In this document: positions 3,849-24,772 of the stretch, in pieces | Layout: every line of letters starts with the position of its first letter | How positions within the stretch are numbered: the first letter of the stretch is position 1 | Origin: Haloquadratum walsbyi J07HQW1 | GTDB lineage: Archaea > Halobacteriota > Halobacteria > Halobacteriales > Haloferacaceae | Reading direction: 5' to 3' | NCBI GenBank assembly: GCA_000415965.1 | Contig: KE356560.1 | Coordinates: 249,186 to 285,834 of the forward strand | DNA: 36,649 nucleotides | The notes under the pieces: model-generated | Databases searched by the model: none | The model's input: only the letters and a program-made list of their open reading frames with translations | Told to the model about the DNA's origin: nothing | Program-made: the position numbers and the translations under genes

Positions 3849-4289
3849 ATGACGACATCAGACTCGCTCACTCGACTCTCGCCGCAGGAGATTGAATCGA
3901 CTATCAGTTCAGTCAAAAAAATGCTCGTTGTTGGTGCCGTCTTCGCAGGTGTCGGATTTCTGCTCATTGGGATGGCACTTTTCCTTGAGCTCACGCAGTT
4001 CCATCCAATGATAGAGACGTTTTTTATAGAACACACAACTCACAGTCTCGCTGGCGGTGGTCCCGACCGCGCAGCGGAGACAGCACTCAATTCACAACTC
4101 ACCGCAATCCATCAGTTCCCCTCAACGCTGTTGTGGCTCAAACTCGGTGGGATTGGTCATATCCTCCTTGGCATCTTTATGACACTTGCTGCAATCGTCC
4201 GTGTATTGAGCCTCGTGCCACACCGCTTGAGTTATGAGATGGAGTGGACACAATCAACATCATCCGATGTCACCACGGGTGATCACTAA
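3849..4289 (+). CDS. Small haloarchaeal membrane protein, unknown function
   Basis: A 146-aa protein with two clear membrane helices (MLVVGAVFAGVGFLLIGMAL, about residues 24-45; and LGGIGHILLGIFMTLAAIVRVL near residues 98-122) joined by a loop of about 50 residues. The N-terminus is polar (TTSDSLTRLSPQEIESTI). No catalytic motif is seen. Several ATGs lie just upstream (3829-3847), but the chosen start gives the usual acidic haloarchaeal N-terminus. The stop codon TAA (4287-4289) is the first triplet of a fold-back repeat copy, so the C-terminal tail may have been set by that insertion. Real gene: likely. Function: unknown. Confidence 0.6.
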   Translation: MTTSDSLTRLSPQEIESTISSVKKMLVVGAVFAGVGFLLIGMALFLELTQFHPMIETFFIEHTTHSLAGGGPDRAAETALNSQLTAIHQFPSTLLWLKLGGIGHILLGIFMTLAAIVRVLSLVPHRLSYEMEWTQSTSSDVTTGDH

Positions 4290-4409
4290 CAGTCGTTGAC
4301 AATATGACCAGCGTTTCTATCCGAACCCACACTGAATTCAGCTGGAACGCCCGGTGACGCGTTCCGCCGCAACTTCGGATACAAAAGTCAAATTACCAAT
4401 AACTGTTAA
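4287..4409 (+). repeat. Fold-back (MITE-like) repeat, copy A
   Basis: This is one of at least five related ~118-bp repeats in the window. It starts CTAACAGTCGTTGACAATATGA and ends ...TTACCAATAACTGTTAA, so its ends are imperfect inverted repeats. The interior carries the family blocks TTTCTATCCGAACCCACACT, GAACGCCCGGTGACGCGTTC and CTTCGGATAC. The strand listed has the TTAACAGTCG end first. It begins inside the stop codon of the gene at 3849-4289. Confidence 0.8.
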
Positions 4410-4996
4410 ATACGCAGTATAACACCCACGTCTGAGTGGACCTTCCGTTTGATTCTTTGCTATATTCATGCTGATAGCTTCCGACAGTGTTACACCCACA
4501 GACAACCCCGGTTCCTTATTCCTCGTTTTCGTTCTCGTTGTGCTCCTCTCTCGTGATATACTCATAATAGAACTTGGAGATACTGAGTTGCATTCTGTCA
4601 CACTGAGTAGACAGCGGCTTTGATATTGTTTTCACACACATGCGTTTGGAATCTCCAATCTTTTTGCTCCGATTTCATGAATACGAAGTCTGAGCACTCG
4701 TGTCTATTGATTTTAGCTACGATGAGATACGATTGTCAGTCGCCCCTGCTGCCGTGTCTGCTCACGAGCATTTTTGTCGGATTCCCAAAAATATTCAATT
4801 TACTAAACGGGATCAAACTCAGATTCGATGGCATTCATATTCCATTGCTTTTGACCTCCTTCCACGGCTCAAGTTGTGGGCTTTCACTTCGAGCCTCTGT
4901 AATCCTCAGTCACTCCCACTCGCACGTCCATCATCAGTGGCATCGGGTGGGTTATACAATGATGCGGTATTAGTTTTTCATAGAGTATCCGTACCA
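4410..4996. other. Intergenic region, no gene seen
   Basis: About 590 bases between repeat copy A and the zinc-ribbon/HTH regulator. Open frames here have no haloarchaeal acidic bias or motif, and the long frame running into the regulator from 4700 is Ser/Leu/His-rich read-through. A TATA-like TTATACAAT near 4954-4962 is the only promoter candidate for the downstream gene. No hairpin or RNA gene was recognised. Confidence 0.5.
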
Positions 4997-5599
4997 ATGT
5001 CTGACGCCTCCAATAGCCACTCACCCGATGACACTGATAAACAGGATGTTCAATACGATCCTGACGACGACTCATATCACATCTTACAATGCACAGACTG
5101 TGACACAACCGTCCTTGCTATCGGTCGTGATGATCCACCGATGTCCTGTCATGACGAACCGATGGAACATATTCACCAGGTTAATATGACAGTAAAAACT
5201 CCAGATATCCGAGAAGTCTTATTTGAAGCGTTTGGACTTCCAAAGTCAGGCCTTGATATCTGCTTGTGTGTAATCGGTGATGGTCCGCTGTCAGCCAGCG
5301 AGGTGGCAGCAAAACTTGATTATGACCGAACGACGGTCACTCGATATCTCAATAAACTCGTTGACCTCGGGTTATTACGCCGCTCTGAACTCAATCGAGA
5401 AGATGGTGGCATCATCAACGCCTATCACTCAGTTGACCTCGAACAGATGCGTCGGGAGACACTTACTGGATTTTATCTTTGGGCGGGCGAAGCAGCAACA
5501 CTTATCGAGAACGCAAATACAACCAAACAGGAATATTTTGAGGAAAATCCTGATCACGACCTCCCAGAGGTGTTTTGGGAATCATTTTCTAAGAAATAG
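4997..5599 (+). CDS. Zinc-ribbon plus winged-helix transcriptional regulator (TrmB/MarR-like)
   Basis: The 200-aa frame from ATG 4997 starts with an acidic Ser/Asp tail (MSDASNSHSPDD), as typical haloarchaeal starts do; the 99 codons upstream look non-coding. Residues 30-60 form a small metal site (C32-TD-C35 ... C51-H52). Residues about 70-150 are a winged helix: PKSGLDICLCVIGDGPLSAS is followed by the recognition helix DRTTVTRYLNKLVDLGLLRRS and a wing. The C-terminal part (about 150-200) is helical, perhaps for dimerisation. The architecture points to a DNA-binding repressor or activator of the TrmB/MarR-like group in archaea. Neighbouring genes do not indicate its targets. Confidence 0.75.
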   Translation: MSDASNSHSPDDTDKQDVQYDPDDDSYHILQCTDCDTTVLAIGRDDPPMSCHDEPMEHIHQVNMTVKTPDIREVLFEAFGLPKSGLDICLCVIGDGPLSASEVAAKLDYDRTTVTRYLNKLVDLGLLRRSELNREDGGIINAYHSVDLEQMRRETLTGFYLWAGEAATLIENANTTKQEYFEENPDHDLPEVFWESFSKK

Positions 5600-5647
5600 T
5601 TATTATCATCTTCACAGCAGTTATCCTCCCGTCGTATCTCCTGACTG

Positions 5648-5770
5648 AGTAACAGTTGTTGGGACTGTGATTTCTCTATTCGAGACAGAACGCGCATACA
5701 GGCGTTCCAGATGAACTAAGTCTGAGGAGTCTGAGTCTGACTTCGGATATAAACATTAGTCATAATGAAG
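5648..5770 (-). repeat. Fold-back repeat, copy C (diverged)
   Basis: The plus strand reads GTAACAGTTGTTGGGACTGTGA, then TTTCTCTATTCGAGACAGAACGC, AGGCGTTCCAGATGAACTAAG and CTTCGGATATAAACATTAGTCATAAT. This matches, block by block, the better copy at 7114-7231. An extra GAGTCTGAGTCTGAC-like stretch is inserted and the right terminal repeat is lost. It lies about 50 bases after the regulator gene's stop codon. The strand is given by family orientation (TTAACAGTCG end taken as left). Confidence 0.65.
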
Positions 5771-5888
5771 AGATACCAGTAGCGTTTCTGATATTTACAC
5801 ACAGCTGTATCAATACCATATCCATCTCATCTGATACTCTTATTTCAGAGAGCGCATTTCACGCTGATCGGTATCGATGCAACTGAAC

Positions 5889-6917
5889 TCAGTGCCGATC
5901 AGTCGTTGATGATGGGACCGGATTGTCACTGTCACCGCCCTGGTTGGTTGTATTGAGGACGTTGAGACGATTCTCGACAGTCTCTGAGATAATCTCCTCA
6001 GGCGGAAGCCTCTGTGTAGTTGCTTCTGTTTCTGTATATGACCGTGATAACTCTGAGGCGTACTCAAGTACTGGCTGTGTAACCGTCTCATCAACAGCAG
6101 ATGCGCCAACCGCGACGGCAAGTGCAAATATATCGGCTTCGAGATTTCCATCAGGTGCAGCGTTTTCAGCATTTCCCGTTCGGTGGAGTGTTTGATCCCG
6201 ACCAAAGGCACGAACAACATCCACGGCTCGACCTGCAGCGTCAGTTCGAGCAAGCAGCGCGAATCCACGCGAGACAAATACATCCGCGGCGAGAACCTCA
6301 AGATCGGCGTCAATATCGCCGGATGCCGCTATATTATTAATGTCTCCGTCTATTTCTGTTTCTGTTTCTGTCGCTGATGTAACCCATGGCTCCGTGTCGG
6401 CGAGTGACCGAGTCAAACGTAAGCCTTCGTAGATCAACTGCACACCTGCTGCGCGGTCAATGAGTGGTAGCCGACGTACACTTTCAGCCGCGTCCGTATA
6501 TTCGGCGAACTGGTGACGATCGGATGCCTCATCTGTCGTTTCAGTGTTCAGATCACAGTTTGACTCTGTTTTTATCTTTTTCTTTGACTTTGAATCTGAA
6601 TTTGAATTTTGAGAACACGCTTCGCCGTCATCAACCTCCGTTTCGGCAATCCGCCCATGAGTCCTTCCAGATGCATTCCCGGCTCCATCGCTGATTGGTG
6701 ATCGGCTTCGGTCCTTATTCTGATCTTGATCAATTATATCGTCAGTGTCGCCACTATCATCAGAGCTACCGAGTGCACGAGCGCTCGCAAGTGCAAGCAC
6801 GGCGGGTGTCATCACCGTGTCTGTCAGGCGAGTGTGAAGCGCCGTGCGGAGAGGACCAGGTTCAATATCCATAATTGCCTCCCGGGCGGCGTCACGGACC
6901 CGCACGGCATCGTCCAT
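5889..6917 (-). CDS. DUF7114-like haloarchaeal protein with acidic low-complexity insert
   Basis: A 342-aa protein. The N-terminus (DDAVRVRDAAREAIMDIEPG...LTDTVMTPAVLALASARAL) and C-terminal half (EVLAADVFVSRGFALLART...AVDVVRAFGRDQT) are helical and match my memory of the haloarchaeal DUF7114 family, which has a distant polyprenyl-synthase-like all-alpha look. Between them, residues about 52-130 are a Ser/Asp/Asn/Lys-rich spacer (DDSGDTDDIIDQDQNKD, SDSKSKKKIKTES), and a second TETETEID tract lies near residue 190. These are encoded by TTCTGT-type short tandem repeats. The inserts are probably disordered and peculiar to this lineage. The gene is upstream of and divergent in role from nadE; no enzymatic motif is certain. 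Confidence 0.65.
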   Translation of the reverse strand: MDDAVRVRDAAREAIMDIEPGPLRTALHTRLTDTVMTPAVLALASARALGSSDDSGDTDDIIDQDQNKDRSRSPISDGAGNASGRTHGRIAETEVDDGEACSQNSNSDSKSKKKIKTESNCDLNTETTDEASDRHQFAEYTDAAESVRRLPLIDRAAGVQLIYEGLRLTRSLADTEPWVTSATETETEIDGDINNIAASGDIDADLEVLAADVFVSRGFALLARTDAAGRAVDVVRAFGRDQTLHRTGNAENAAPDGNLEADIFALAVAVGASAVDETVTQPVLEYASELSRSYTETEATTQRLPPEEIISETVENRLNVLNTTNQGGDSDNPVPSSTTDRH

Positions 6918-7113
6918 TAAATATCAATAACTGCGGCAGGGGCAAAGACCTTTGGAAAATCACCGCCATACAGCGACCGGGTATATCTATGCCCACTTCG
7001 CACAGGCGATTTTGATGAACTCAATTTTCTATCATTGTTAATCAACTCATCTTCTTGTATTAATTTCTCCGCCTCCTCGAATAATTGGCTGTTTTCTATT
7101 ACTCCGATGCTCG

Positions 7114-7231
7114 TTAACAGTTGTTGGTAATTTGATTTCTGTATCCGAAGTGGAACGCGTCACCGGGCGTTCTAGTCGAAGTTAGTGTGGTTTCGGATAG
7201 AAACACTGATCATATTGCCAACGACTGTTAA
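7114..7231 (-). repeat. Fold-back repeat, copy D (best preserved ends)
   Basis: This 118-bp copy runs from TTAACAGTTGTTGGTAAT to ATTGCCAACGACTGTTAA. The two 18-base ends are inverted repeats with two transition mismatches. Nested inside are TATCCGAA/TTCGGATA and AACGC/GCGTT pairs, so the whole element can fold as one long hairpin. It lies 22 bases past the nadE stop codon and, read in the nadE direction, has the same orientation as copies A and E relative to their genes. Confidence 0.85.
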
Positions 7232-7253
7232 GCAGGTGCAGGTTGTGGTGCAC

Positions 7254-8087
7254 TCACAGAGACAGTGGTGATGGTGCAGGTGGCATCTGTCGTTTATGTT
7301 CACTCTTCTCATATAGCTCGACAACCCGAGTGACATCCTCAGCTGTCACATCAAGTTGTCGGACAGTTGCATCGATTGATAATGGCCCATCAACGTGTAC
7401 TGCAAGAATCGCATCGACAGTATCATACCCTAATCCAAGTTCTTCCTCATCAGTCTGTCCAACCCACATACCCGCGGATGGTGTCTTCATGACTAATTCC
7501 TCAGGCACCCCGACCGATGCAGCCAACTGTCTTACCTGCTGTTTATACAGATTCCCGATAGGATTACAATCGACTGCTTGATCACCGTATTTTGTATAAT
7601 ATCCAGTCAATGCCTCCGACCGATTTCCGGTTCCGAGGACAATTTTGTTTTCATGATTTGCGATAAAGTAATTAAGAACTGCTCGAGTTCGGACGTAGAC
7701 ATTCCCAGCAGCCATTTGATCATCTGCAGCCTCTGGGACTGCCTCGAAAAATGATTCAGCGATTGGCTGGATCTCAATCACGTCATATGGAATGTCAAGT
7801 TCTTCTGCGACCCACTCAGCGTCACTCATGTTCGAATCATCACTGACCTCACTTGGCATCACAAGCCCATGTACGTTCTCTGCACCAAGTGCATCGACCG
7901 CCATGTACGCGACTGTTGTGCTATCGATTCCTCCTGATAATCCAAGAACAGCACCGTCAACACCTGCATCATCGACCATATCAGCAATGAACTGACTTAC
8001 ATGCGATTCAATCGCGTCGAGTTCCTCCGGTGATAATCGGAGATCAAGCGGTGCATCCGTCGAGAGAACTGACTGTTGTGCACTCAT
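7254..8087 (-). CDS. nadE: NAD+ synthetase (ammonia-dependent)
   Basis: A 277-aa N-type ATP pyrophosphatase that amidates deamido-NAD+ to NAD+ in the last step of NAD synthesis. The PP-loop SGGIDS lies at residues 51-56. Family landmarks follow: RTRAVLNYFIANHENKIVLGTGN and then RSEALTGYYTKYGD, DCNPIGNLYKQQVRQLA, and KTPSAGMWVGQTDEEELG. No glutaminase domain is present, so ammonia is the likely nitrogen donor. The start at 8087 (MSAQQSVLSTD) gives the expected acidic N-terminus; an in-frame ATG at 8174 would add 29 atypical residues. A fold-back repeat follows directly after the gene. Confidence 0.93.
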   Translation of the reverse strand: MSAQQSVLSTDAPLDLRLSPEELDAIESHVSQFIADMVDDAGVDGAVLGLSGGIDSTTVAYMAVDALGAENVHGLVMPSEVSDDSNMSDAEWVAEELDIPYDVIEIQPIAESFFEAVPEAADDQMAAGNVYVRTRAVLNYFIANHENKIVLGTGNRSEALTGYYTKYGDQAVDCNPIGNLYKQQVRQLAASVGVPEELVMKTPSAGMWVGQTDEEELGLGYDTVDAILAVHVDGPLSIDATVRQLDVTAEDVTRVVELYEKSEHKRQMPPAPSPLSL

Positions 8088-8295
8088 CAACGAATTATAC
8101 ACTACCAGAGGATTAATATCTATTTCCTGTTGCTCATGACTAAATCTTGAAAATCTGATATCGAGTGTTAACACCGGTTATTGAGTGTTACCATTGTGAT
8201 CATGCTCGGGATCGGGAGTGTCTGGGTGTGATCTAACCGTCACAATTAACATTAATGTATGAATAACTTACATACAGCGTTATACTGCACCTCTC

Positions 8296-8366
8296 GCGCC
8301 GGTGGTCCAATGGTAGGACTCGGGCTTCCCAAGCCCGCGGTCCGGGTTCGATTCCCGGTCGGCGCA
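8296..8366 (+). tRNA. tRNA-Gly (anticodon CCC)
   Basis: The 71 bases fold as a full cloverleaf. The acceptor stem is GCGCCGG with TCGGCGC (one G-U at the seventh pair). The D arm is GTCC/GGAC. The anticodon stem CGGGC/GCCCG has loop TTCCCAA, so the anticodon is CCC. The T arm is CCGGG/CCCGG with loop TTCGATT, and A is the discriminator base. CCA is not encoded and there is no intron. Confidence 0.96.
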
Positions 8367-8562
8367 GTTTCAAACCCTCTCTCGGCGGACATATATCTTG
8401 TCACGGTTACAACGAATATTTCCGATAGCGACTTTGACTCAAGACAACTGCTAACACCGCTGTTATCATTTAACCTGGCGTATGTCAGACTACCTGAATG
8501 CTAAGTTAAGCCGTCTGCTGTCGAAGTTAGTAACCTCATTAGTTACCGATAGTCTAGTCTGG

Positions 8563-8823
8563 TTAGACATCGAATCCGTTTCGTCTCAGTGCGTCTGCTA
8601 AGTCGCTGTCAGGGGCAGCTGAAAACTCCGTAAACGATGATTCCGGACGTGTTGTCGTATAAAGGTCAGCATCGATATTGTCCGGGATTTCGTTTGCGTG
8701 CGTGTCTTCAACAACGGCGATTGTTAACGTCCGGTTCGCAGATGCATCGTTCGACTCACTCATTAACTGATGTATGAGAACGTGACGTTTGTCCCTTGGC
8801 ATTTCTTCGACAACCATCTTCAT
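8563..8823 (-). CDS. Small haloarchaeal hypothetical protein, 86 aa
   Basis: The frame gives an acidic 86-residue protein with alternating hydrophobic strands (LTIAVVEDTHA, ADLYTTTRPESSFTEF) and a C-terminal helix (SDLADALRRNGFDV). Codon use and acidity match neighbouring genes, which supports it as real. No family is recognised. It is alone between tRNA-Gly and the divergent aldo/keto reductase gene. Start could be the second Met (two codons later) or a later one (MPRDKRHVL). Confidence 0.5.
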   Translation of the reverse strand: MKMVVEEMPRDKRHVLIHQLMSESNDASANRTLTIAVVEDTHANEIPDNIDADLYTTTRPESSFTEFSAAPDSDLADALRRNGFDV

Positions 8824-8999
8824 TCATCTCAGAATGCGTTGATTATTGATTTCAACTTAACACCGTCTCCACATCTACACTATTGGGTCGAATAACGTAT
8901 TCTTTACACCGAAGCGAGTATGCAATCGACATATCCGTGTGTCCGCTTGTGTGCGAACGATACAAGAATGGCTAAGTAAGTTGCATACATTGGTTTGAT

Positions 9000-10082
9000 A
9001 TGCACTATCGAACACTGGGCAATTCCGGTGTTGAAGTTAGCGAGGTCGGATTCGGTGCATGGGTCGTCGGAACCGACTGGTGGGGTGATCGCACCCGCAG
9101 CGACTCAATTGAACTTTTACACCATGCTGTTGATCAGGGCATCACATACTTTGACACGGGTGATGTCTATGGTCACGGTGATAGTGAATCGATTCTTGGT
9201 GAGGCGCTGACACCATATCGTGATGACGTCACTGTTGCAACAAAAGTCGGCTATGACTTTTATAATAATCCACAAGCAGGTCATGGCGAATTACCAAAAG
9301 AGATAACAGGTGAGTGGATACGGGACGCAACTCGTCGGAGCCTTGACCGGCTTGATATGGAGTATATCGACGTCTTACAACTACACAATGCAAATGTCGA
9401 TGAGGTTGATGCAGATGTGCTCGAAACGCTTGATGAACTGCGTGAGGAAGGACTCGTTGATGCGATTGGCTGGGCACTTGGTCCCTCAATCGGGTGGCTT
9501 GCCGAGGGCGATCTAGCTATCACTGAAGAGTTTGATTCAGTACAACTTGTCTGGAATCTTTTCGAGCAAGATGTCGGTAATCACTTTCTTGACACGATCG
9601 AAGAAACGAACGCCACAACAAGTCTCATCCCACGTGTTCCTCACTCATCGGGGCTTCTCAACGAACAAGTAACACCTGAAACAGGGTACGATCTTGATGA
9701 TCATCGTGGATTTCGACCGGATGCATGGTATGAGACTGGCTGGGACAAAATTGAGACACTTCGATTTCTCGAACGTGATGGTGACCGGACCATGGGTCAA
9801 GCTGCAATTGCATATCTCCTCAGCCATGATGCAGTTGCAACAGTGACACCAACCTTCCACACTCGCGAGGACATCACTGCGTGGGCGGCTGCTTCTGATG
9901 TTCCAAAACTCTCAGCCGAAGAACTCTCTCGGGTGTCATCACTGTACGCAGAGAACTTTGGTATCGATCGCGACGATGGAATGGATCAACTTCGTTCATC
10001 TGTTGATGGTGAGGATATCCGTGCCGCTGGAATTAATAAACGAGCGACGAGTGATTCAAGAAATACAGCGTCCTCAGATTGA
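9000..10082 (+). CDS. Aldo/keto reductase
   Basis: A 360-aa NAD(P)H-dependent oxidoreductase of the aldo/keto reductase superfamily, a (beta/alpha)8 barrel that reduces carbonyl compounds. The catalytic tetrad is visible: D52 and Y57 in FDTGDVYG, K82 in VATKVGYD, and H129 in VLQLHN. The opening MHYRTLGNSGVEVSEVGFGA is standard. The cofactor-phosphate region near AIAYLLSHDAVATVTPTFHT is present. The last ~20 residues are polar and dispensable-looking. It converges with pitA. The natural substrate cannot be read from sequence. Confidence 0.9.
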   Translation: MHYRTLGNSGVEVSEVGFGAWVVGTDWWGDRTRSDSIELLHHAVDQGITYFDTGDVYGHGDSESILGEALTPYRDDVTVATKVGYDFYNNPQAGHGELPKEITGEWIRDATRRSLDRLDMEYIDVLQLHNANVDEVDADVLETLDELREEGLVDAIGWALGPSIGWLAEGDLAITEEFDSVQLVWNLFEQDVGNHFLDTIEETNATTSLIPRVPHSSGLLNEQVTPETGYDLDDHRGFRPDAWYETGWDKIETLRFLERDGDRTMGQAAIAYLLSHDAVATVTPTFHTREDITAWAAASDVPKLSAEELSRVSSLYAENFGIDRDDGMDQLRSSVDGEDIRAAGINKRATSDSRNTASSD

Positions 10083-10251
10083 TTATTTAATCTGCTTAAT
10101 AATGATAAACTGAAACTGGAACCGGAACCGGAGGTGAGACTTAGACTCAGACTCAGAGTAGGTGTGAGCTTTCTCAGGATCACGCCCAAGCCCCGAGTCA
10201 CTCGCCTTGGTTATCTGTAGAGGTGCTATGTCACACACACGGCTGAGCCAC
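10083..10251. repeat. Short tandem repeats in intergenic DNA
   Basis: Between the convergent aldo/keto reductase and pitA genes lie GGAACC-type repeats (GAAACTGGAACCGGAACCGG, about 10111-10130) and repeated GACTCA units (about 10143-10157). They are simple-sequence tracts like those found within coding regions nearby. No gene or clear terminator was seen. Confidence 0.5.
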
Positions 10252-11877
10252 TCAGGCTAAAAACACATGTCGTGGGCGCTCAGCAAGCACGTCACGTCCC
10301 CATTCGACGGTGTCACTGAACTCATCCGACCGGAAAAAGTTCATTGCATCCTCACGGGCATCCCATTGGCTGGAAATAAACATATCATTCTCGTTTTCAA
10401 GATTAATCATCAGGTCTGTCTGTTGATGCCCGTCCATCTCAGCGAGGATTCCCCCAACAGTATCAAAGGTCTCATTGAATTCGCCGCGATATTCTGGTTC
10501 GACTGTATAGAACATCCCCATCGTTCCAAAGCCTGATTCTTCGCCCGCCCGTGAGACAATGTCAGGTAACTCCGAAAGAAATCCGGCTGCTGTTTCTGCG
10601 GCCGATTGTGTCTCCCAAATACTGACAACAGCATTTCGGTGGCGATTGCGAGCCTCGTATACCGCCGTTTTGACATGTGTCTCATAATGGTCGAAATTCT
10701 TTCTCAGTCCGTCAACCTCTGAGAACAGCTCATCGGTGTCCGCCTGTGAGTATAGAACCGTCGCATAGACATCTTCGCCGTGTGGCTGTCCTGCATAAAT
10801 ATCATACTTCGCCAACTGTTCACGTATTTCGCCATCTTGAGCGTCACCGCGAGTGCTTGTGCTTGTGTCTGATTGTGCCGTCTCCGCGCTCGCGGGAGGT
10901 CCAGAGCTGCTGTGGTCTGCATCTTCTGTCCTGTGCGTCGACCCGCCGGCGCTGGCACCGCCAGGTGACTGTCCAGGAGAGCCATGACTTCCTCCGCCTC
11001 CGCCTCCGTGTGGAGAGTCCCCATGGGCATGTCCGTGTGCCTCACCATGTGCTGTTGGCGCGTCAACGTCCTGTTCGACTGTCGGGACCGCCTGTCCTTC
11101 GAGAAGTGCACCAAGGTCAGCTGGTGGGAAGCGTCGTCCAATATAAAATGTCCCAAATTCGCCATATTTTGCAGACACCTCATCAAACCGCATTTCATAC
11201 ACGATATCCTTGATATCCGTTGGATCATCGGCGAACAGCGTCACTCCCCACTCATAATCATCAAACCCAACCGAGGACGCGATGATTTGCTTGATTTTCC
11301 CTGCGTATTCCTTTCCAGTCTCAGCGTGAGCCTCCATCATTTCCGCTCGCTCATCCATCGGGAGATCATACCAGTTGTGTGTCTCACCCCGACGCTTCGA
11401 CATCGGGTAGAACCCGGCATAATCCTTCTCAGGTATCTCGGGTGTCAACTTTCCTTGCATGTACTGCCGGAGTCCCTCATCTGCGGCATCTGGATTCTCA
11501 AAGTATTCGGGTGTTGTATATCCCGATATCTCTGCAACAGAAACATATGATGTTGGCTGCGTTGTAAAGCCAGCAAATGTTGTTTGCTCGAATTGACGTT
11601 CAGCCTGTGAGAGTGCATCAAGCGTTGGTCGGAGATGTGTGATAAGGATGTCAGCTTTATGTCCAATCACAGAGAACACGGCTGAGGAGCCCTCTTCAGC
11701 GTCGGCAATCGCCTCATATTTTCGAAGATATTCAACACCATCACCGATTGCAGCCTCTTGACGGTGTGTTGGTGCGTCGCGCCACGCATCCCAATCAATC
11801 GTACGAAAATCATGTAGGACGAACCAGCCCTCGTCAGTCGGCGGGACCTCTGGCATACTCATATGTTCAACCGCCAT
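10252..11877 (-). CDS. pitA: PitA-type fusion: chlorite dismutase/HemQ-like domain plus ABM domain
   Basis: A 541-aa fusion. Residues about 15-260 are a chlorite dismutase/coproheme decarboxylase-like domain: LHDFRTIDWDAWRDAP, then YPMSKRRGETHNWY (Y157 matches the catalytic Tyr of HemQ), a candidate axial His at H184 in MEAHAETG, and GFDDYEWGVTLFADDP. Residues 452-541 are an antibiotic-biosynthesis-monooxygenase (ABM) dimeric barrel (MGMFYTVEPEYRGEF...). The linker, about 275-345, is Gly/His/Ser-rich (HGEAHGHAHGD, HGGGGGGSHGS) and could bind metal. This matches PitA, described in Haloferax volcanii as a fusion of these two Pfam families. A heme-related role is likely but unproved. Start may instead be M6 or M8. 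Confidence 0.88.
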   Translation of the reverse strand: MAVEHMSMPEVPPTDEGWFVLHDFRTIDWDAWRDAPTHRQEAAIGDGVEYLRKYEAIADAEEGSSAVFSVIGHKADILITHLRPTLDALSQAERQFEQTTFAGFTTQPTSYVSVAEISGYTTPEYFENPDAADEGLRQYMQGKLTPEIPEKDYAGFYPMSKRRGETHNWYDLPMDERAEMMEAHAETGKEYAGKIKQIIASSVGFDDYEWGVTLFADDPTDIKDIVYEMRFDEVSAKYGEFGTFYIGRRFPPADLGALLEGQAVPTVEQDVDAPTAHGEAHGHAHGDSPHGGGGGGSHGSPGQSPGGASAGGSTHRTEDADHSSSGPPASAETAQSDTSTSTRGDAQDGEIREQLAKYDIYAGQPHGEDVYATVLYSQADTDELFSEVDGLRKNFDHYETHVKTAVYEARNRHRNAVVSIWETQSAAETAAGFLSELPDIVSRAGEESGFGTMGMFYTVEPEYRGEFNETFDTVGGILAEMDGHQQTDLMINLENENDMFISSQWDAREDAMNFFRSDEFSDTVEWGRDVLAERPRHVFLA

Positions 11878-16868: not shown

Positions 16869-16874
16869 CGGTAG

Positions 16875-17600: not shown

Positions 17601-17653
17601 TGAATGTGGTTGCTTCGAATCGGGCTTAAGAGTTATCAACTGGACACTCCTGC

Positions 17654-18143: not shown

Positions 18144-18962
18144 ATGCAGGTGCTCGGGATTCTTGGGCGCGATGCAGAGACGCTCTGCGATGACGTTGCT
18201 GCTCAACTTGATGGCACGGTTGCCGTTATCCAGACAGAGAAAATACCAGAACGGACAGTCACTACTGCTCACGATGTATCGTCTAGTATAACGACGCGAT
18301 ATGACCTTGCAGATGATGGTCGCTGGCATGCGAGTGGAGAAAGCTATGATGTGGTCGATATCCTTGATGAACTTTCGACGACAGTCGATTATACACTCGT
18401 TATCGGTTCATCAAATGCACGTATACCCACGGTATTGCTCGATACCGCGGTAACAGATATTGACCCTAACTCGAGTCATGTCGTTCTCACTGCCGAAACA
18501 GCAGCAACGGTTGATACCGAGGAGGTCGTTACTGCGGTTGAGACTGCTGAACCGCATATAGCGTTGTCGACACTTATCGAACGAGTCAAAACGTCTTCGC
18601 ATGCAGACCGTGCTGGTGCAATTGCCACCTTCACGGGACGTGTGCGAGCACGTGACACTGATGATGACCCAAAGACGGTTCGCCTTCGATTTGAGACGTA
18701 TGATTCAGTCGCTGATGACCGAATGCGCAAAATTGAATCTGAATTAACTCAACGAGATGGTGTCTATGCGGTCGAGTTATTCCATCGGACGGGTGTAATC
18801 AACAATGGGGAAGACATCGTTTTTGTCGTCGTCTTAGCCGGGCATCGAGAGGAAGCGTTTGAGACAGTTTCGGATGGAATTGACCGATTGAAAGCCGAGG
18901 TCCCGATTTTTAAACATGAAACAACTATCGAGGAGGACTTCTGGGTTCATGAGCGAAATTAA
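18144..18962 (+). CDS. moaE: MobB-like/MoaE fusion, molybdopterin synthase large subunit
   Basis: A 272-aa two-domain protein. Residues about 155-272 are MoaE, the catalytic subunit that inserts sulfur from MoaD into precursor Z. It has ATFTGRVRARD, HR at 234-235, and two Lys residues, K250 and K257, seven apart as are the catalytic pair K119/K126 of E. coli MoaE. Residues 1-145 look like a MobB-type GTPase fold (MQVLGILG..., then VDYTLVIGSS), but the Walker A Gly-Lys-Ser/Thr is absent: the loop reads GILGRDAETL. MobB-MoaE fusions are known in haloarchaea. The start at 18144 is chosen because it begins the first strand; ATG 18093 or 18114 would add a non-conserved tail. Repeat copy E follows the gene. 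Confidence 0.85.
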   Translation: MQVLGILGRDAETLCDDVAAQLDGTVAVIQTEKIPERTVTTAHDVSSSITTRYDLADDGRWHASGESYDVVDILDELSTTVDYTLVIGSSNARIPTVLLDTAVTDIDPNSSHVVLTAETAATVDTEEVVTAVETAEPHIALSTLIERVKTSSHADRAGAIATFTGRVRARDTDDDPKTVRLRFETYDSVADDRMRKIESELTQRDGVYAVELFHRTGVINNGEDIVFVVVLAGHREEAFETVSDGIDRLKAEVPIFKHETTIEEDFWVHERN

Positions 18963-19468
18963 TATACCCTTTTATCGAACACCGCAGTGAGCGTTGATAG
19001 GGTGACCCATCGAGAACCTACAGACAGTAACAGTCGGTGGTAACATGACCAATGTTCATATCCGAACCCACACTCATCTGACTTGGAACGCACACGTGAC
19101 TGTTTCGTCTGGAGTAAAAAACCACAGTCCCAACAGCTGTTAACTGAAATGGAATACTGAGACTGGCGATTCACATCTAAACAGTGTAGCTTCGTATCTA
19201 GACTGGTCACGGTGCCAACCGCTGATATGGATAACTCATCACTGTGATCGTCTGATGACAGTCGGACATGTTATTATTAGCATCGGATTAATTTTGTACA
19301 CTGAGACCAGAAATAAACAGTCAAAAACAATAATAAAAAGTCAAACAGATAGAAAATCTCTCTTAAAGAGAGGTAAATCCTCTTTTCATATCGTAAATAA
19401 AACTGAATTTTATCGAACGGTCTTATCCATATATATTTCCAGGGGGGTAACATGAAGTTGTATTACCG
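18963..19468. promoter_or_regulatory. Intergenic region: fold-back repeat, A/T tract, promoter
   Basis: This 506-base gap holds repeat copy E (19028-19143). It also has an A-rich stretch (19308-19345), a perfect CTCTCT/AGAGAG hairpin (19358-19372), and TATA-like boxes at about 19406-19412 (TTTTATC region) and 19430-19437 (TATATATT). A Shine-Dalgarno-like AGGGGGGT sits at 19441-19448, before a six-codon minicistron. No other gene was seen. Confidence 0.55.
19028..19143 (+). repeat. Fold-back repeat, copy E
   Basis: It begins GTAACAGTCGGTGGTAACATGA and ends CCCAACAGCTGTTAA. Interior blocks TTCATATCCGAACCCACACT and CTTGGAACGC match copies A and D. It lies about 65 bases after the moaE stop, with the TAACAGTCG end nearest the gene. 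The right half is more diverged (TTCGTCTGGAGT in place of the CTTCGGATA block). Confidence 0.78.
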
Positions 19469-19472
19469 ATGA
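19452..19472 (+). CDS. Six-codon minicistron overlapping the next start codon
   Basis: ATG 19452 encodes MKLYYR and stops at TGA 19470-19472, which overlaps the next gene's ATG (19469-19471) as ATGA. A G-rich AGGGGGGT at 19441-19448 sits four bases before this ATG and could pair with the 3' end of 16S rRNA. If transcribed, it would couple translation to the DUF7123-like gene. If transcription starts about 26 bases after the TATATATT box, the ATG would be missed, so this is a hypothesis. Confidence 0.3.
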   Translation: MKLYYR

Positions 19473-19735
19473 GCGCAACTGCAACACCCTCCACAGATGC
19501 GGACGAGGATCAATCGAAAGAAGAGCGTTTGAAGAACTATCTTGTCTCAAAGGCACAGGATGGCGAGATGTATTTCAAATCGAAATTTATCGCCGATGAG
19601 GTTGGGCTCTCGGCTAAGGAAATTGGTGCACTCATGGTGAAGCTTCGTGACTCCGCGACTGAATTGACCGTCGAGAAATGGTCATACACAAGTGCAACCA
19701 CCTGGCGGGTCGAAACGACTGCTGAGACTGCTTAA
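19469..19735 (+). CDS. DUF7123-like winged-helix protein
   Basis: An 88-aa protein with a short Thr/Asp tail and a compact helical domain: ERLKNYLVSKAQDGEMYFKS, KFIADEVGLSAKEIGALMVK and VEKWSYTSATTWRVE. The order helix, helix-turn-helix, two-strand wing suggests a small winged-helix fold. It matches, from memory, the well-conserved haloarchaeal DUF7123 family, whose function is not described. It is monocistronic, with an unusually AT-rich upstream region and a candidate minicistron overlapping its start. Confidence 0.75.
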   Translation: MSATATPSTDADEDQSKEERLKNYLVSKAQDGEMYFKSKFIADEVGLSAKEIGALMVKLRDSATELTVEKWSYTSATTWRVETTAETA

Positions 19736-20015
19736 TCATCATTGAACGCCTACAGTCACGACCAGTGACTGCGTCTGTACTTGAATTGACATCACAATTA
19801 TCCGGATGAGATTGAAACCACTGATCTCCGGCACATTATTGTTCTTACTGCGTGCACCGTGACTAACAGTGAGTGTATTGAGACAGAGTGCTGTTCACTT
19901 TAATAATCTTGAGTTTATTCATGCTACCGTCACGCGGACAACCTCACGCGTTGTAGCCGTTTCAATCACGGTGTAGTCAAGAGGTTTATTGGTCCCTGTA
20001 TCATATTTGTCCATA

Positions 20016-21156
20016 ATGGAATCACTCGATCCGGCAGTGGACCCGCCGGTCGACGCCCTCCAATCGGTCTTTCATCTCTATGAGACACAGCGGGACGGCG
20101 ACCGTATTCTCTATTACGGCGAATCGCTCGTGCCTGAGCAGATGTTAATTCGTGAGGCATGGCCAGCATTCCGCGAGGCGGGCTATGAGATTGAACTGGC
20201 ATCCACAGAGACTCGTGAAGATATTGTTGTTGCGCGTCCAATCGACACTGGTATCGATGGATTTCCGTGGAAGAATATGCTTCTGTTTCTCGCAACGATT
20301 GTTTCGACGCTTCTTGTCGGTGCAATCACATGGTATTATATTCCACCATCAGATCTCATCGCAAATCCACTGACAGTGCTGCGGGCGTGGCCATTTACTG
20401 CAGCTATCCTTGGTGTTCTCGCCACTCATGAGCTTGGTCACTATGTCATGGGGACGATATCATGGTGTTAACGTGTCACTCCCGTATGTTATTCCGTTCA
20501 TATTTCCCTTTGGGACGCTCGGTGCGATTATTCGGATGCGTGGACAGATGCCGGATCGAAGGGCATTATTTGATATCGGTGTCGCAGGTCCACTTGCTGG
20601 ATTAGCGGCGACAGTGATTGTGACTATCATTGGTCTTACTCAGTCACCCATTCAGATCCCGGCGCGAGCCATGGAGCAAAGTGGTCAGATGATTATATTC
20701 AATAATCCGCCACTGCTTGACATTGTCGCGACCGCAATCGGAGAACCAACGACATACAACGATCCCCGCATGTCTGTTTCTCCGATCATTATCGGGGGAT
20801 GGGTTGGAATGTTCTTTACTGTACTCAACCTGCTTCCCGTCGGTCAACTTGATGGAGGACACATTCTCCGAGCAATGCTTGGAAGTGCACAGGAGCGTAT
20901 CGCCGCTCTCGTCCCAGTCAGTCTCATTGCACTTGCAGCATACCTACATTACGGTCTTGGTTATGCGTTTAATGAGTCAGTCGGACTCTGGGCATTTTGG
21001 GGAGTCCTCTCGGCGTTTGTGGCGTTTAAAGGTCCAGCAAACCCTATCGACGATACACCACTTGATATCCCACGAGTTCTCCTTGGCGTCATTACGTTTG
21101 CTCTTGGAGCACTTTGCTTCTTACTTGTTCCAATCGAAGTAGCCACGGTTGGTTGA
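20016..21156 (+). pseudogene. Site-2 protease (M50 family), frameshifted
   Basis: The first frame, from ATG 20016, encodes a soluble N-terminal part and membrane helices up to the zinc motif THELGHYVMG (H138, H142). It then runs into TISWC and stops at 20469. From the same point the +1-shifted frame reads GRYHGVNVSLPYVIPFIFPF and continues to 21156 through a GPLAGL segment and the third-ligand motif LLPVGQLDGGHIL. The two parts join seamlessly if one G is removed from the GGGG run at 20450-20453. The restored protein would be about 379 aa, a six- or seven-helix S2P without PDZ domains (EGY1-like). This is either a recent inactivation or a homopolymer sequencing error. Confidence 0.85.
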
Positions 21157-21240
21157 TTGATACCGAGTACACGAATAGACTGACTTCCATGTCGCCACAG
21201 CTTGTAGGAATAGGTATGAGTCCTAACGATACCGCTTGAC

Positions 21241-21321
21241 TCTCATTTAGCTGAATACAGGCGAGCCCCCTTCCCCGAGGAGCAACGCAGGACGAAGACC
21301 AAGTAGGCAGGGGCAGTTCAC
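21241..21321 (+). mobile_element. 3' end of a second decayed IS200/IS605-type (TnpB) element
   Basis: The segment reads CTGAATACAGGCGAGCCCCC...GAGCAACGCAGG... and then TAGGCAGGGGCAGTTCAC, ending at 21321. The last 18 bases match the corresponding end at 2606-2623 (read on the minus strand) at 15 of 18 positions. The CAGG-AGCCCC block upstream is also shared. No tnpB coding sequence can be followed further left, so it is a solo end. The surrounding 340 bases between the protease remnant and thiL contain nothing else recognisable. Confidence 0.6.
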
Positions 21322-21394
21322 CGCACTGACAGAGCGGTATTTGTCGATACACATAACGGAACATTACAGCGATTACATACACTCACAAAACAAT

Positions 21395-22290
21395 TTACTC
21401 TGTGGCGTGTGTATATCCCTCATCTGGAAGTGACTCACCATCCATTGTGATGCCGCTATTAGACTCGGTGACTTCGCCAATCACGTGTACAGGAACTATG
21501 CTGTTTCACGAGCGTCTGTAAGTTCTGTTGGTGGCAGTGTCAACACAAGTTCAAAATCCTCGCCGACTGTCGTCGTGAGCTCCTGTCGTGTCGATACGTC
21601 GTCAACGTATTCCTTCACAGCCGAATGTGTTGGAATTGCATCTCGATGCAATGACATTCCAACTTCAGAGGCGGATGCAAGTTGATGGACCGACCGTGCG
21701 AGTCCATCGGAAGAATCCATCATTGCTGTGGTGTGTTCTGCAAGTGCTGCTCCGGTGGTTACGCGGGGAGTAAACTGAAATAACTCATTTCCATAGCCCA
21801 TATCTCCGGCATCGAACGCTTTCAGACCTGCTACTGTTCGCCCAAGGCTACCAGTCACGCATACACAATCACCCACCTGTGCGCCATGGCGATATGATGG
21901 ATAATCAACAGTACCGAGTGCTGTTGTTGCGATGGTCAACTCTGATGTCGTATCAAGATCACCACCAACGTATCTAGCGCCGACGGCTTCACATACATCA
22001 ATCGCACCGGCGATGAATGCGTCTAGCTCATCTGGGTCAAACCCTGGGGCACCATACACGGCAACTGCAGCAGTAGCCTGTCCACCCATCGCAGCGATAT
22101 CTGAGAGTGACGCACCAACAGCACGCCACCCTGCAGTGTATCTGGTGATTCCATCTGGGAAATCTGTCGTCTCATGAAGCATATCGGTCGTGATGACGAG
22201 TGAGGTTGAGTCTAATGAGACCACTGCTGCGTCATCGCCTGCCTCTGACAGGGTCTTTGATATCTGTTCAAGAGCAGCACGTTCATCCAT
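21395..22290 (-). pseudogene. thiL: Thiamine-monophosphate kinase, C-terminus out of frame
   Basis: ThiL phosphorylates thiamine monophosphate to the diphosphate. From ATG 22290 (MDERAALEQISKTLSEAGDDAAVV) the frame shows ITTDMLHETTDFP, GWRAVGASLSDIAAMGG, VGGDLDTTSELTI, MDSSDGLARSVHQLA and VGEDFELVLTLPP, all family motifs. It stops at 21496 after 264 residues (ARETA). The missing C-terminus continues in another minus-strand frame as VPVHVIGEVTESNSG and DEGYTHATE, ending at TAA 21395-21397. One base is lost near 21497-21501 (restoring it would give about 297 aa). The truncated protein keeps the ATP and Mg sites but loses the last strands. It may still function, or the shift may be a sequencing error. 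Confidence 0.85.
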
Positions 22291-22305
22291 ATACAACAGT
22301 ACCAC

Positions 22306-22872
22306 ATCTGTAGTAATACGCGTTTGTCATCTCTGCATATAACCCTCACCAGGATAAGTGACACTGATCATAAATATACATATGTTGATACCCCCCCTTC
22401 GCGGGTTATTGAATTGGATTCGCGTCTTTATACTCCGCTTAAGTTGTCGAAGGCACACCACAGGATCTGTATGAGTCAGGTGTGCTACAACCACCACGAC
22501 TCAAGACTCGACAGACACTGACAAAATCATACATATCATAACAGTCGCCAGAGCTTTCACCGACGCAACTAGAGTCATTGTCTATTGCATTAGCCCGAAA
22601 AATGTGTGTCTGATGCCCGTTATTTTGCCATTACCTGTCATTTTTTCGACAGCAACCCCCTGTTCATGACTGTTTGAACAGAGTGTTATAAATGTCGTTG
22701 ACGGTGATTCGGCAGACTGTGAGTACTGATGTCGATACCAGCTATCTAGTTGCTGGGCAGCATCAAAGTACCATTGACACCAATAATATCACCGTGATTC
22801 TGATATTTACTGAATATGATATGTGCTCGGTGTTTCGATGGGTTGATAATCAAGACAGCCAAGTAAAGATAT
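22306..22872. other. Intergenic region, no gene seen
   Basis: About 570 bases between the divergent thiL and YbhN-type genes. It contains a C8 run (about 22391-22399) and AT-rich stretches. The short frames lack haloarchaeal composition, and a 63-codon frame entering the YbhN-type gene region is out of frame with it. No repeat copy or RNA gene was recognised. Confidence 0.45.
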
Positions 22873-23919
22873 ATGCATATTGATGACCTCCGAACCACCA
22901 TCATCGGGTTCGGCAGCGTCATCATCATTTTCGCTGCGTTATTTGCCTTTGTTGGTGTTGATGAACTCATTGCAACGGTGCGTACAGCTAATCCACAATA
23001 TGTTGCACTAGTTATCGGAGCAACGCTCACATGGCTCTTTGCATGGAGTATTTCACTCCATACGGTACTTCAAACACTCGACGTGCATCTCTCGTATGCT
23101 GCATCGTTTCTTGTGTTTGCCGGTGCGATGTTTTCGAATAATGTTACCCCATTTGGACAGGCTGGTGGGGAGCCAATTACTGCATACCTTATCTCACAAA
23201 CTGCTGATGCAGAGTACGAGACAAGTCTTGCAGCAATCGCAAGTGTCGATACATTGAATCTGATCCCCTCAGTCACAATTGCGTTAATTGGTGCAGGGTA
23301 CTTTACAACGGAAGTTGCAGTTGGTTCACGCTCAGATGTCCTTTTTGGAAGCTTGGTGGTCGTTGCTCTTGCAACGACCATCTTGACAATTGCATACGCC
23401 GCGTGGCGATATCGATATAAGATTGAAAATCATGTTGTACATGCGCTTGCACCCGTGATTCATTGGGCTGCGGATATCGTCCCTCATCTACCGGATATTG
23501 CTGAAGCAGAGATTAAAACACGTATTGAAGGGTTTTTTCGAGCAATTGAACGTGTCGCTGCGAATCCACAACAACTTGCCGTTGCTCTGAGTGCATCGAC
23601 CATCGGATGGATCTGTCAAATGACTGCATTATGGCTTGCTTTCCGCGCTATTGGGGTCGAACTTCGAACTGCGTTTGTTTTGATTATCGTCCCGATTGCC
23701 ACCATCGCCGGGATGACACCATTACCTGGTGGTGCTGGTGGGATTGAAACTGTACTTGTGTTTTTGTTATTAGCTGCTCCACTCCCGCACGTGAGTGAAG
23801 CAATTGCAGTCACGGCAGTGGTTATCTTCCGTGGTGCTATCTATTGGGTCCCAGTCATTCTTGGTGGTGGCGTCGTCGCTTGGATCAGCAGTGGCGCCAA
23901 TATCGGTAGTCCTAATTAA
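22873..23919 (+). CDS. YbhN/UPF0104-type membrane protein (flippase-like domain)
   Basis: A 348-aa polytopic membrane protein with about eight hydrophobic segments. It carries the signature stretches of the lysylphosphatidylglycerol-synthase transmembrane/YbhN family: FLVFAGAMFSNNVTPFGQAG near residues 79-98 (the family's P-x-x-x-G-GE region, here AGGEP) and TPLPGGAGGIE near residues 280-290. There is no lysyltransferase domain, so it is the stand-alone flippase-like form, likely moving a lipid or polyprenol-linked substrate across the membrane. Neighbours do not identify the substrate. Confidence 0.85.
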   Translation: MHIDDLRTTIIGFGSVIIIFAALFAFVGVDELIATVRTANPQYVALVIGATLTWLFAWSISLHTVLQTLDVHLSYAASFLVFAGAMFSNNVTPFGQAGGEPITAYLISQTADAEYETSLAAIASVDTLNLIPSVTIALIGAGYFTTEVAVGSRSDVLFGSLVVVALATTILTIAYAAWRYRYKIENHVVHALAPVIHWAADIVPHLPDIAEAEIKTRIEGFFRAIERVAANPQQLAVALSASTIGWICQMTALWLAFRAIGVELRTAFVLIIVPIATIAGMTPLPGGAGGIETVLVFLLLAAPLPHVSEAIAVTAVVIFRGAIYWVPVILGGGVVAWISSGANIGSPN

Positions 23920-24057
23920 TGATTGGTCTGTGGTGATATGGATATGACTTTCCACGAAATAAAACAGACTCACAATCATACGTCGATACACACGTGTTCT
24001 TTGTCGGTCCAGGGTGATTCGTTCCGCACTGATATGATCTGATTATCATATGTATGA

Positions 24058-24100
24058 TATAATATATTCTATCCGGACCCATGTCGCTGGATAATTACCG
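24058..24100 (+). repeat. Possible fragment of the fold-back repeat
   Basis: TTCTATCCGGACCCA (from about 24068) differs at one position from the family block TTCTATCCGAACCCA of copy A, and CTGGA follows as in the family. The rest is not alignable by eye. It may be a decayed sixth copy between the YbhN-type gene and rps19e. Confidence 0.3.
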
Positions 24101-24130
24101 GTTTTGAGCCATAAAGCGGTGATACGATGG

Positions 24131-24138
24131 CTTTAAAC
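24131..24138 (+). promoter_or_regulatory. TATA box of rps19e
   Basis: CTTTAAAC is centred about 27 bases before the ATG at 24162, the spacing of a leaderless haloarchaeal promoter. No Shine-Dalgarno site precedes the ATG. Confidence 0.6.
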
Positions 24139-24161
24139 AATATCGGTCGATATCAAAACAC

Positions 24162-24617
24162 ATGGTTAGCGTATATGACGTACCGGCGGATGCTCTGATC
24201 GAGGATGTCGCCGACCGGCTCACCGATCGGATTGAAGAGCCTGGGTGGATGGAATATGCAAAGTCTGGACAGAGCCGTGAACTCCCGCCTCAACAGGATG
24301 ATTTCTGGTATGTTCGCGCTGCTTCGCTCCTGCGTAAAGTCGCAAAGAAAGGTCCGATTGGCGTCGACCACCTTGCAAGCGAATACGGTGGTCGTAAACG
24401 TGGGTCAAATCGATACCGAGTCGCGAGTGATCACTCAACGACGGGCAGTAAAAATATCATCCGAACTGCTCTCCAGCAACTTGAAGAAGAAGGACTTGTT
24501 TCGACAGCAAAAGGACAAGGTCGACGTATTTCACCTGAGGGTCAACAGTTTCTTGACAACGCCGCTTCTGATGTGCTTGAGGAACTAGACCGTCCCGAAC
24601 TTGAGCGTTACGCGTAG
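24162..24617 (+). CDS. rps19e: Ribosomal protein S19e
   Basis: A 151-aa small-subunit ribosomal protein found only in archaea and eukaryotes and needed for 40S/30S maturation. Family landmarks are VYDVPADALIEDVADRL at the start, WYVRAASLLRKVAKKGPIGV, the Arg-rich GGRKRGSNRYRVASDHSTTG loop that contacts rRNA, and IIRTALQQLEEEGLV with a Gly/Arg wing (GQGRRISPEGQ). It is full length with an acidic C-terminus. It is followed by a PDCD5-like gene and a PP-loop ATPase on the same strand, a grouping I recall from other haloarchaea. Confidence 0.96.
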   Translation: MVSVYDVPADALIEDVADRLTDRIEEPGWMEYAKSGQSRELPPQQDDFWYVRAASLLRKVAKKGPIGVDHLASEYGGRKRGSNRYRVASDHSTTGSKNIIRTALQQLEEEGLVSTAKGQGRRISPEGQQFLDNAASDVLEELDRPELERYA

Positions 24618-24649
24618 ACGGATTTATGTCTATCTCTTAGCAGGTATTG

Positions 24650-24720
24650 ATGCTGTCGGTCGCTGTTTATATTCGAGACCGAGCACGCAAACGGGCGCTT
24701 CAAGTCGACTACTCCGGGGT
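24650..24720 (-). repeat. Fold-back repeat, copy F (fragment)
   Basis: TATTCGAGACCGAGCACGCA, ACGGGCGCTTCAAGTCGA and ACTCCGG align with the left half of copies C and D (TATTCGAGACAGAACGCGCA in C; CCGGGCGTTCTAGTCGAAG in D). The terminal repeats are decayed. It begins about 35 bases after the rps19e stop. Confidence 0.5.
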
Positions 24721-24772
24721 GCGTTCACAGACCCCGTAATCGTTTTTAGCAATCAGTGAAAAGTATATGCTG

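Follow-up and report, generated by a model that had tools for sequence, protein, structure and literature searches.

Fold-back repeats at gene ends in Haloquadratum walsbyi: a MITE family likely moved by transposons that bear HRAMP-like genes

Introduction

A stretch of 36,649 nt from the genome of Haloquadratum walsbyi J07HQW1 (KE356560.1, positions 249,186-285,834; genome of 3,475,501 bases in one contig), in the following called the window, contains a family of palindromic repeats of about 118 bp. An initial annotation, made from the sequence alone, listed five related copies (A to E), each described as one long hairpin and each located shortly behind a stop codon. By structure these repeats look like miniature inverted-repeat transposable elements (MITEs), and their location suggested either a targeted insertion or a role in transcript ending or in the stability of mRNA 3' ends. 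This raises the question of what the repeats are, what moves them and why they are found at gene ends.

As described in the following, the repeats are a MITE family. It is very probably moved by the ISH3-like transposase of larger transposons that bear HRAMP-like genes, its position would result from a target motif together with selection, and its palindrome would decay neutrally. The term HRAMP (haloarchaeal RAMP systems) stands for a CRISPR derivative with diverged Cas5- and Cas7-like genes that occur with further proteins in haloarchaea, according to the passages on this system in PMC8730458 and PMC12669027.

Results

A MITE family with 4-bp target duplications

A blastn search with copy A gave 41 matches in the genome. 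The model R1, which was built from 29 genome copies, matched all 150 candidates that were scored out of 1,600 first-look candidates, 149 of them at E < 1e-6. The family therefore stands well above chance and comprises at least 150 copies in 3.48 Mb; the position tests use these 150 copies, which are a lower bound for the genome. Across 96 sampled stretches, 174 places match R1 at E ≤ 0.01. The elements are 109-122 bp long in 30 aligned copies and 85-158 bp among all 150, and their ends have the form CAGTYRTTGG...CCAAYRACTG, with the terminal inverted repeats CAGTCGTTGGCAATATGA and CAGTTGTTGGTA in a consensus over 100 copies. The insertions are accompanied by target duplications of 4 bp with the motif NTAN (central TA). 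At the outer positions of this motif the left and right flanks agree in 75% and 68% of the cases, compared to an expectation of 36% and 29%, and beyond the 4-bp word the agreement is near base level. Identical 4-bp words flank 56 of the 150 copies, where 8.7 were expected and the maximum in 2,000 shuffles was 20. The ends, the NTAN duplications and the copy number thus bear out the assignment of the repeats to the MITEs. The median divergence from the consensus is 18%, and most copies are therefore probably old.

A search with the joined flanks of the 150 copies returned 16 spanning rows. Nine of them (six distinct loci) concern a single MITE that lies inside a decayed copy of a 260-aa gene, the third of the HRAMP-like genes presented below; the site of this MITE is spanned by homologous stretches from the host and from relatives, with a gap of 5 bases at the junction in eight of the nine rows. 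Three rows represent one place in the genome G012 (genomes are numbered with G and loci with L) with a MITE at the matching site: the left flank of the host copy 1690293-1690414 is 89% like the flank of the MITE at G012:C3:1477487-1477614, so that this insertion is apparently common to the two species and older than their split. The remaining four rows are self-matches or weak.

Copies within the window

The following copies and duplications were found or reconsidered within the window:

4290..4405, plus strand: MITE copy A, 116 bp (R1 140.6 bits, E 2e-30)
4286..4289: CTAA, the target duplication to the left of copy A, ending in the three bases of the stop codon TAA
4406..4409: TTAA, the target duplication to the right of copy A, equal to the left one at three of four bases
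5653..5771, minus strand: MITE copy B, 119 bp, decayed (R1 64.3 bits, E 6.7e-13; flanks GTAA/GATA)
7118..7227, minus strand: MITE copy C, 110 bp (R1 131.4 bits; TTAA on each side, 7114-7117 and 7228-7231)
19031..19139, plus strand: MITE copy D, 109 bp, decayed (R1 69.6 bits; flanks GTAA/TTAA)
28950..29062, minus strand: weak decayed MITE copy (R1 33 bits, E 1.1e-5), absent from the initial annotation
24641..24755, minus strand: copy E of the initial annotation, membership unsupported (R1 7.5 bits, E 7.9)

Of the five copies first proposed, A to D match R1 (E 2e-30 to 7e-13, filters off), whereas copy E was rejected as a member: besides its low R1 score, its best blastn match to the 150 copies extends over 28 nt (E 0.008). 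A stretch of 42 nt in E is 74% like copy B. The boundaries given earlier were off by a few bases, since the outermost 4 bp belong to the target duplications. Copy A begins at the base directly after the TAA stop codon of the gene 3849-4289, and the distances to the stop codon are 0, 53, 26 and 68 bp for A, B, C and D, based on our own gene calls. The additional copy at 28950-29062, which is 72% identical to a genome copy over 106 nt (blastn, E 2.8e-7), is placed in a tandem gap on the start side, with a stop codon 569 bp before and a start codon 125 bp after it. A 3'-end position is therefore not universal among the window copies. Also the description of every copy as one long hairpin holds only in part, since of A to E just two, A and C, show good RNA folding (z -3.8 to -5.9), in contrast to B and D (z -1.1 to +0.45).

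In the region of copy D, the same aligned gene flanks lie closer together in G012 and G009 (119 and 146 versus 269 and 344 bases), and the alignment to these two genomes contains no MITE copy at the place of D; a base-exact empty site was not obtained, the gap in G012 and G009 being too diverged. A scan of the window with Rfam returned one tRNA and nothing else. It was correctly noted that the window holds no matching transposase, as the two matching places of the host are both located outside of it.

Large transposons with the same ends

MITE-type ends that have no partner at MITE distance led to longer elements in the host genome that are bounded by identical duplications. The host features, in genome coordinates, are:

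244291-246063: element of 1,773 bp, duplications ATAG/ATAG, with pieces of a Cas5-like gene
973787-976456: element of 2,670 bp, duplications ATAA/ATAA, with pieces of a Cas5-like gene and of a DDE transposase
974123-974791: broken transposase within the 2,670-bp element
1947991-1948632: broken transposase with two TGA codons, nearest Cas5-like match 11.5 kb away

A Cas5-like open reading frame (ORF) of 306 aa in the host (locus L166) has relatives in 17 of 60 genomes. At about 551-571 of L166 (host genome about 1959050), a short stretch of N marks an assembly gap beside an apparent second leuS fragment, and a longer leuS copy is present at 3976-5799 of the same locus; this probably results from an error of assembly, by which the HRAMP-like element is interrupted as well.

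In G030, which belongs to the same family but to another genus, an element of 9,603 bp (L232) is bounded by ends with 1 and 0 mismatches and by the duplications ATAA/ATAA. It encodes a transposase, the last part of which is apparently in another frame, as well as Cas7/Csm3-like, 260-aa and Cas5/Cmr3-like proteins. The part of the element between the transposase and the HRAMP-like genes (L232 2807-6970) codes for a CPBP protease, a hydrolase of the beta-lactamase fold and a TnpB, which are either cargo or the content of a nested insertion of IS605 type.

When named genomes were scanned with an alignment of 14 Cas5-like proteins, 83 loci were found, and 80 of them were kept. A MITE-type end with at most 3 mismatches follows the Cas5-like match within 400 bp downstream in 35 of these 80 loci, mostly at 84-148 bp; 24 of the 35 ends have 0 or 1 mismatches and 31 stand next to NTAN. 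With the reversed pattern as a control, one of 80 loci had a match within 500 bp. The end is present in 33 of 54 loci that are at least 55% identical to the Cas5-like protein of G030, in comparison to 2 of 26 loci below 55%, and the ends at these two loci, which are without TA, may be chance matches. Eight loci are complete with identical 4-bp duplications (control: 0) and measure 3,747-7,292 bp, the left end differing from the right end by 1-6 mismatches:

Haloferax sulfurifontis: two complete elements
Haloquadratum walsbyi J07HQW2: one complete element
Halobacterium salinarum DSM 3754: one complete element
Natronolimnohabitans sp. A-GB9: two complete elements
Halovenus, metagenome-assembled genome: one complete element
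Halobacteriaceae, metagenome-assembled genome: one complete element

Four of the eight (3.7-4.1 kb) contain three RAMP-type genes and no transposase match, whereas the other four have a transposase match (a remnant in J07HQW2). No Cas7-like match was found in the complete element of H. salinarum. Overall, the large elements span 3.5-9.6 kb and occur in genera of several haloarchaeal families. The search for a transposon with matching inverted ends has thus led to broken ones in the host genome and to intact ones in other haloarchaea. A tree of 64 stop-free Cas5-like proteins separates 25 rows without any NTAN-flanked end from 39 rows of which 24 have one. The haloarchaeal families intermingle in this tree, in some cases at short branches, which is what a mobile element would lead one to expect.

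Two further observations concern the same genes. In G044:C1 (e.g. 3992-4129 and 615370-615498), pieces of about 40-56 residues from the Cas5-like C-terminus recur and might represent another class of short non-autonomous elements in which the right end is retained. Moreover, a contig binned as Elusimicrobia bacterium (L308) holds Cas7-, third- and Cas5-like genes of haloarchaeal type and is probably misbinned.

The ends of the MITEs and of the large elements agree over about 18 bp and partly up to about 29 bp (by eye), and both share the duplication length and motif. When the best 92 candidates at most per genome were scored with R1 in 40 genomes, the MITE was found in seven (G000, G001, G009, G012, G016, G017 and G044), with 17 matches in G012, a cultured Haloquadratum. 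These are seven of the 14 genomes with a Cas5-like match and none of the 26 without (Fisher p 1.8e-4), a p-value that is only indicative because the genomes are related.

The HRAMP-like genes and the transposase

The 260-aa third gene was matched in 75 and the Cas7-like gene in 65 of the 80 loci, and the Cas7-like protein was recognized as a Cas7 homolog. The Cas5-like protein matched Cmr3 of PADLOC (E 4.7e-6 and 1.7e-6) and nothing in Pfam or NCBIfam; a structure model from a 14-row alignment reached a pLDDT of 48 and was not used. Searches of PDB sequences with the Cas7-like alignment, the Cas5-like alignment and the transposase gave no match at E ≤ 0.1. The 260-aa protein had nothing significant in Pfam, NCBIfam and PADLOC, and by description it would correspond to the uncharacterized third protein of HRAMP. 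No CRISPR repeat array is present in the three elements L265, L290 and L294, and no nuclease was detected by Pfam in eight intervening ORFs of L265, L290, L276 and L295. Adjoining the transposon ends of the HRAMP-like element of G044, but outside of them, there is a gene for NurA (PF09376; L228 7833-9134).

Intact transposase ORFs of 618-626 aa are present in L265, L290 and L276. The 618-aa proteins of two complete elements belong to DDE_Tnp_1 (PF01609; L265 34.0 and L290 37.5 bits, Pfam cut-off 23), and the transposase pieces of the 2,670-bp host element reach 26.5 bits with the same family and are closest to ISH3 in NCBIfam. The transposase protein of L232 on its own had no Pfam match. The best NCBIfam match of the transposase is ISH3 (E 2e-15 to 3e-12), with a score that stays below the cut-off of the ISH3 equivalog NF033541 (56.5 of 225 bits in L232). 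Next to the transposase and on its strand, two of the HRAMP-like transposons encode a conserved DUF7718 protein (L265 6130-6504, L290 6845-7228).

A transposase match leftward on the opposite strand accompanies 10 of the 35 end-bearing loci (one weak, L268). Among the 26 loci below 55% identity, no transposase match occurs to the left of the Cas5-like gene. A search of 195 genomes of the order with the L290 transposase, in which the best six candidates at most per genome were scored, gave matches at E ≤ 1e-90 in at least nine places. Among the nine close matches listed, seven have a Cas5-like gene within 5 kb, and for the exceptions the distance is 7.5 kb (G097) and 11.5 kb (host).

Position relative to genes

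Genes were called with our own Markov caller (683 genes in the sampled stretches, 59% coding), and some gaps therefore contain missed genes. Overlaps between the 150 copies and the called genes do not exceed 40 bp. Six copies are without a defined neighbour and 144 were used; the gap is convergent for 45 of these, tandem for 73 and divergent for 26. These shares (31/51/18%) differ from the 25/41/34% expected from intergenic length (p 3e-4), an expectation which assumes that the remaining genome resembles the copy-free sampled gaps.

Within 65 bp of a stop codon there are 36 of the 144 copies, compared to 25.5 if each copy were placed uniformly within its gap (p 0.005), and within 65 bp of a start codon there are 8 compared to 17.5 (p 0.0025). 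If placement in the same gap is restricted to NTAN sites (143 copies), the numbers are 35 versus 27.7 near stops (p 0.04) and 8 versus 21.0 near starts (p 5e-5). Ten copies, among them copy A, lie exactly at a stop codon (seven TAA, two TAG, one TGA), and it is from these ten that the near-stop excess over the NTAN expectation stems; at TAA or TAG there are nine where 3.8 were expected (p 0.012). With regard to strand, tandem gaps show no bias (35 versus 38).

The bias towards 3' ends that the initial annotation pointed out hence exists but is modest, and the presence of NTAN in TAA and TAG stop codons together with the depletion near starts mostly accounts for it. An insertion targeted to 3' ends would agree with the 36 copies near stops, but much less with the 26 copies in divergent gaps and with the smaller difference that remains for NTAN sites. 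A preferred orientation relative to the gene is not seen in tandem gaps and appears as a weak bias within 100 bp of the stop codon, where 32 copies are on the strand of the gene and 16 on the other (p 0.03).

The hairpin

The long hairpin shows no covariation. In 150 aligned copies 82.0% of the cells pair, compared to 82.2% with shuffled partners, and two-sided changes amount to 122 versus 135.5; this count used the hairpin from the consensus of the other (minus) strand. For the plus strand, RNAalifold with 29 copies did not find a long hairpin (-2.8 kcal/mol). The minus strand folds better in 143 of 150 copies. Copies within 65 bp of a stop codon do not fold better than the others (-0.306 versus -0.319 kcal/nt, p 0.34), and five T in a row occur in 14 (plus strand) and 17 (minus strand) of the 150 copies. 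The absence of covariation over 150 copies argues against a role as RNA. Together with the folding near stops, the lacking strand bias in tandem gaps and the few runs of T, it leaves the suggested role in transcript ending or 3'-end stability unsupported, and the repeats are likely not gene-ending signals.

Discussion

Overall, the shared ends, the common duplication and the joint occurrence with the Cas5-like gene suggest that the MITEs are likely moved in trans by the ISH3-like transposase of the HRAMP-bearing transposons. This transposase would bind the ends of the MITEs and insert them at NTAN. Copies that enter genes or come to lie near starts would be lost by selection, whereas insertions at NTAN in convergent or 3' gaps, including NTAA and NTAG at stop codons, would be tolerated. 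We propose that the stop codon survives such an insertion in the left duplication, which would explain the tolerance. The impression of a 3'-end family would then reflect the target motif and selection and not a function in transcript ending, and the palindrome might be an inherited feature of the transposon that decays neutrally.

Several points do not fit easily into this picture. Only two places with the transposase were seen in the host, and both are broken; the MITEs share about 18-29 bp of end with the large elements but no interior. Furthermore, the surplus of copies on the strand of the gene within 100 bp of the stop codon is not predicted, and the excess at stop codons (9 versus 3.8; 10 in all) goes beyond a uniform choice among NTAN sites. 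Finally, the duplications of the ten stop-codon copies are identical in four cases, equal at three of four bases in another four and equal at two bases at most in the remaining two.

Other explanations are less likely. That the hairpins are 3'-end signals, kept near stops to end transcripts or to protect mRNA ends, is extremely unlikely: although such a function would agree with the surplus within 65 bp of stops, the ten copies exactly at stop codons and the good folding of one strand, the 150 copies show no excess pairing or compensatory change, their median distance from the consensus is 18%, and 26 of 144 lie in divergent gaps. Moreover, near-stop copies fold no better than others, runs of five T are rare, and within 100 bp of the stop codon the strand of the gene is more often the worse-folding one (32 versus 16). 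It is highly unlikely that the transposition machinery itself, guided by protein or RNA, targets the MITEs to 3' ends. The nine copies at TAA or TAG stops (ten with the one at TGA) could be read in this way, but the number of the remaining near-stop copies, 25, is close to the expectation (35 versus 27.7 in all), many copies lie far from any stop, and the depletion near starts (8 versus 21.0) points to selection.

As for the source of the transposase, an unrelated transposon with similar ends might move the MITEs instead of the HRAMP-bearing one. Relatives of the transposase without HRAMP do exist at 1947991-1948632 of the host (Cas5-like match 11.5 kb off) and at 161091 of G044 (none near), and the interiors of the MITEs are unlike the large elements. 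However, these two loci lack a MITE-type end (at most 3 mismatches) in flanks of about 1.5 kb, the MITE follows the Cas5-like gene (7/14 versus 0/26 genomes), and the close transposase matches listed are within 5 kb of this gene in seven of nine cases, so that we regard this explanation as very unlikely.

We also considered that an HRAMP complex and the ISH3-like transposase together choose or license insertion sites, as an archaeal CRISPR-coupled transposon with the MITEs as passengers, which seems unlikely. This idea would be in line with the close transposase being mostly (seven of nine listed) paired with HRAMP-like genes in one opposed arrangement, with the module alone being repeatedly bracketed by the same ends, with several elements in which no nuclease was found and with MITEs at stop codons oftener than NTAN alone predicts. 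In CRISPR-associated transposons (CASTs) the transposon ends enclose a CRISPR-type module next to the transposase, together with Tn7-like genes, and insertion is RNA-guided. The elements described here resemble them in having a CRISPR-type module within transposon ends and beside a transposase and in several cases no nuclease found. They differ in that no CRISPR array was seen in the three large elements checked and no Tn7-like gene was named among the ORFs scanned with general libraries, a scan that did not include a search aimed with Tn7 models.

Returning to mobilization by the transposase of the HRAMP-bearing transposons, such a relationship has precedents in the species. The MITEs of H. 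walsbyi are described as short, non-coding elements with inverted ends related to transposons, often with target duplications, that are mobilized in trans and whose parent transposases are sometimes all broken (Dyall-Smith et al. 2011, PMC3119063, sections on MITEs). The present family shares these traits, its mobilization in trans being predicted; its relation to the published family sequences (HqIRS) was assessed by description only. Five MITE families are listed there, and table 4 gives 55 MITEs in all in each of two strains, in contrast to at least 150 copies of one family here. The same source describes SMR-A of Haloquadratum, which has about 110 bp, prominent inverted ends and many copies and is therefore similar in appearance. 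However, SMR-A is reported to cause no target duplication and to insert in palindromes of PATEs and IS605-type elements, while the present family is characterized by 4-bp NTAN duplications.

The transposase has its best NCBIfam match in ISH3 but remains below the curated cut-off. According to the tables of PMC10264941, ISH3 duplicates 5 bp of its target; the elements presented here differ in their duplication of 4 bp (eight complete elements), in a transposase of about 620 aa and in a length of 3.5-9.6 kb with cargo. The HRAMP-like module resembles HRAMP, by description, in its diverged Cas7-like and putative Cas5-like genes with a further protein and in that no array was found in the three elements checked. 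It differs in its location within transposon ends, in part with an ISH3-like transposase, a carriage that the HRAMP passages of PMC8730458 and PMC12669027 do not mention. In the literature searched, no HRAMP within transposons is described, but the original HRAMP paper lay outside that search and the novelty is unproven.

Conclusions

What appeared as a family of hairpins at gene 3' ends is recast as the traces of a transposon lineage, and a simple reason is proposed for the presence of the repeats at gene ends, namely NTAN inside TAA and TAG stop codons together with selection against hits on the start side. Of the two main branches of HRAMP-like genes found here, one is to a large part located inside mobile elements from genera of several haloarchaeal families, and some of these elements have an intact transposase. 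The role of HRAMP, be it defence, transposon control or guided transposition, thereby becomes directly testable.

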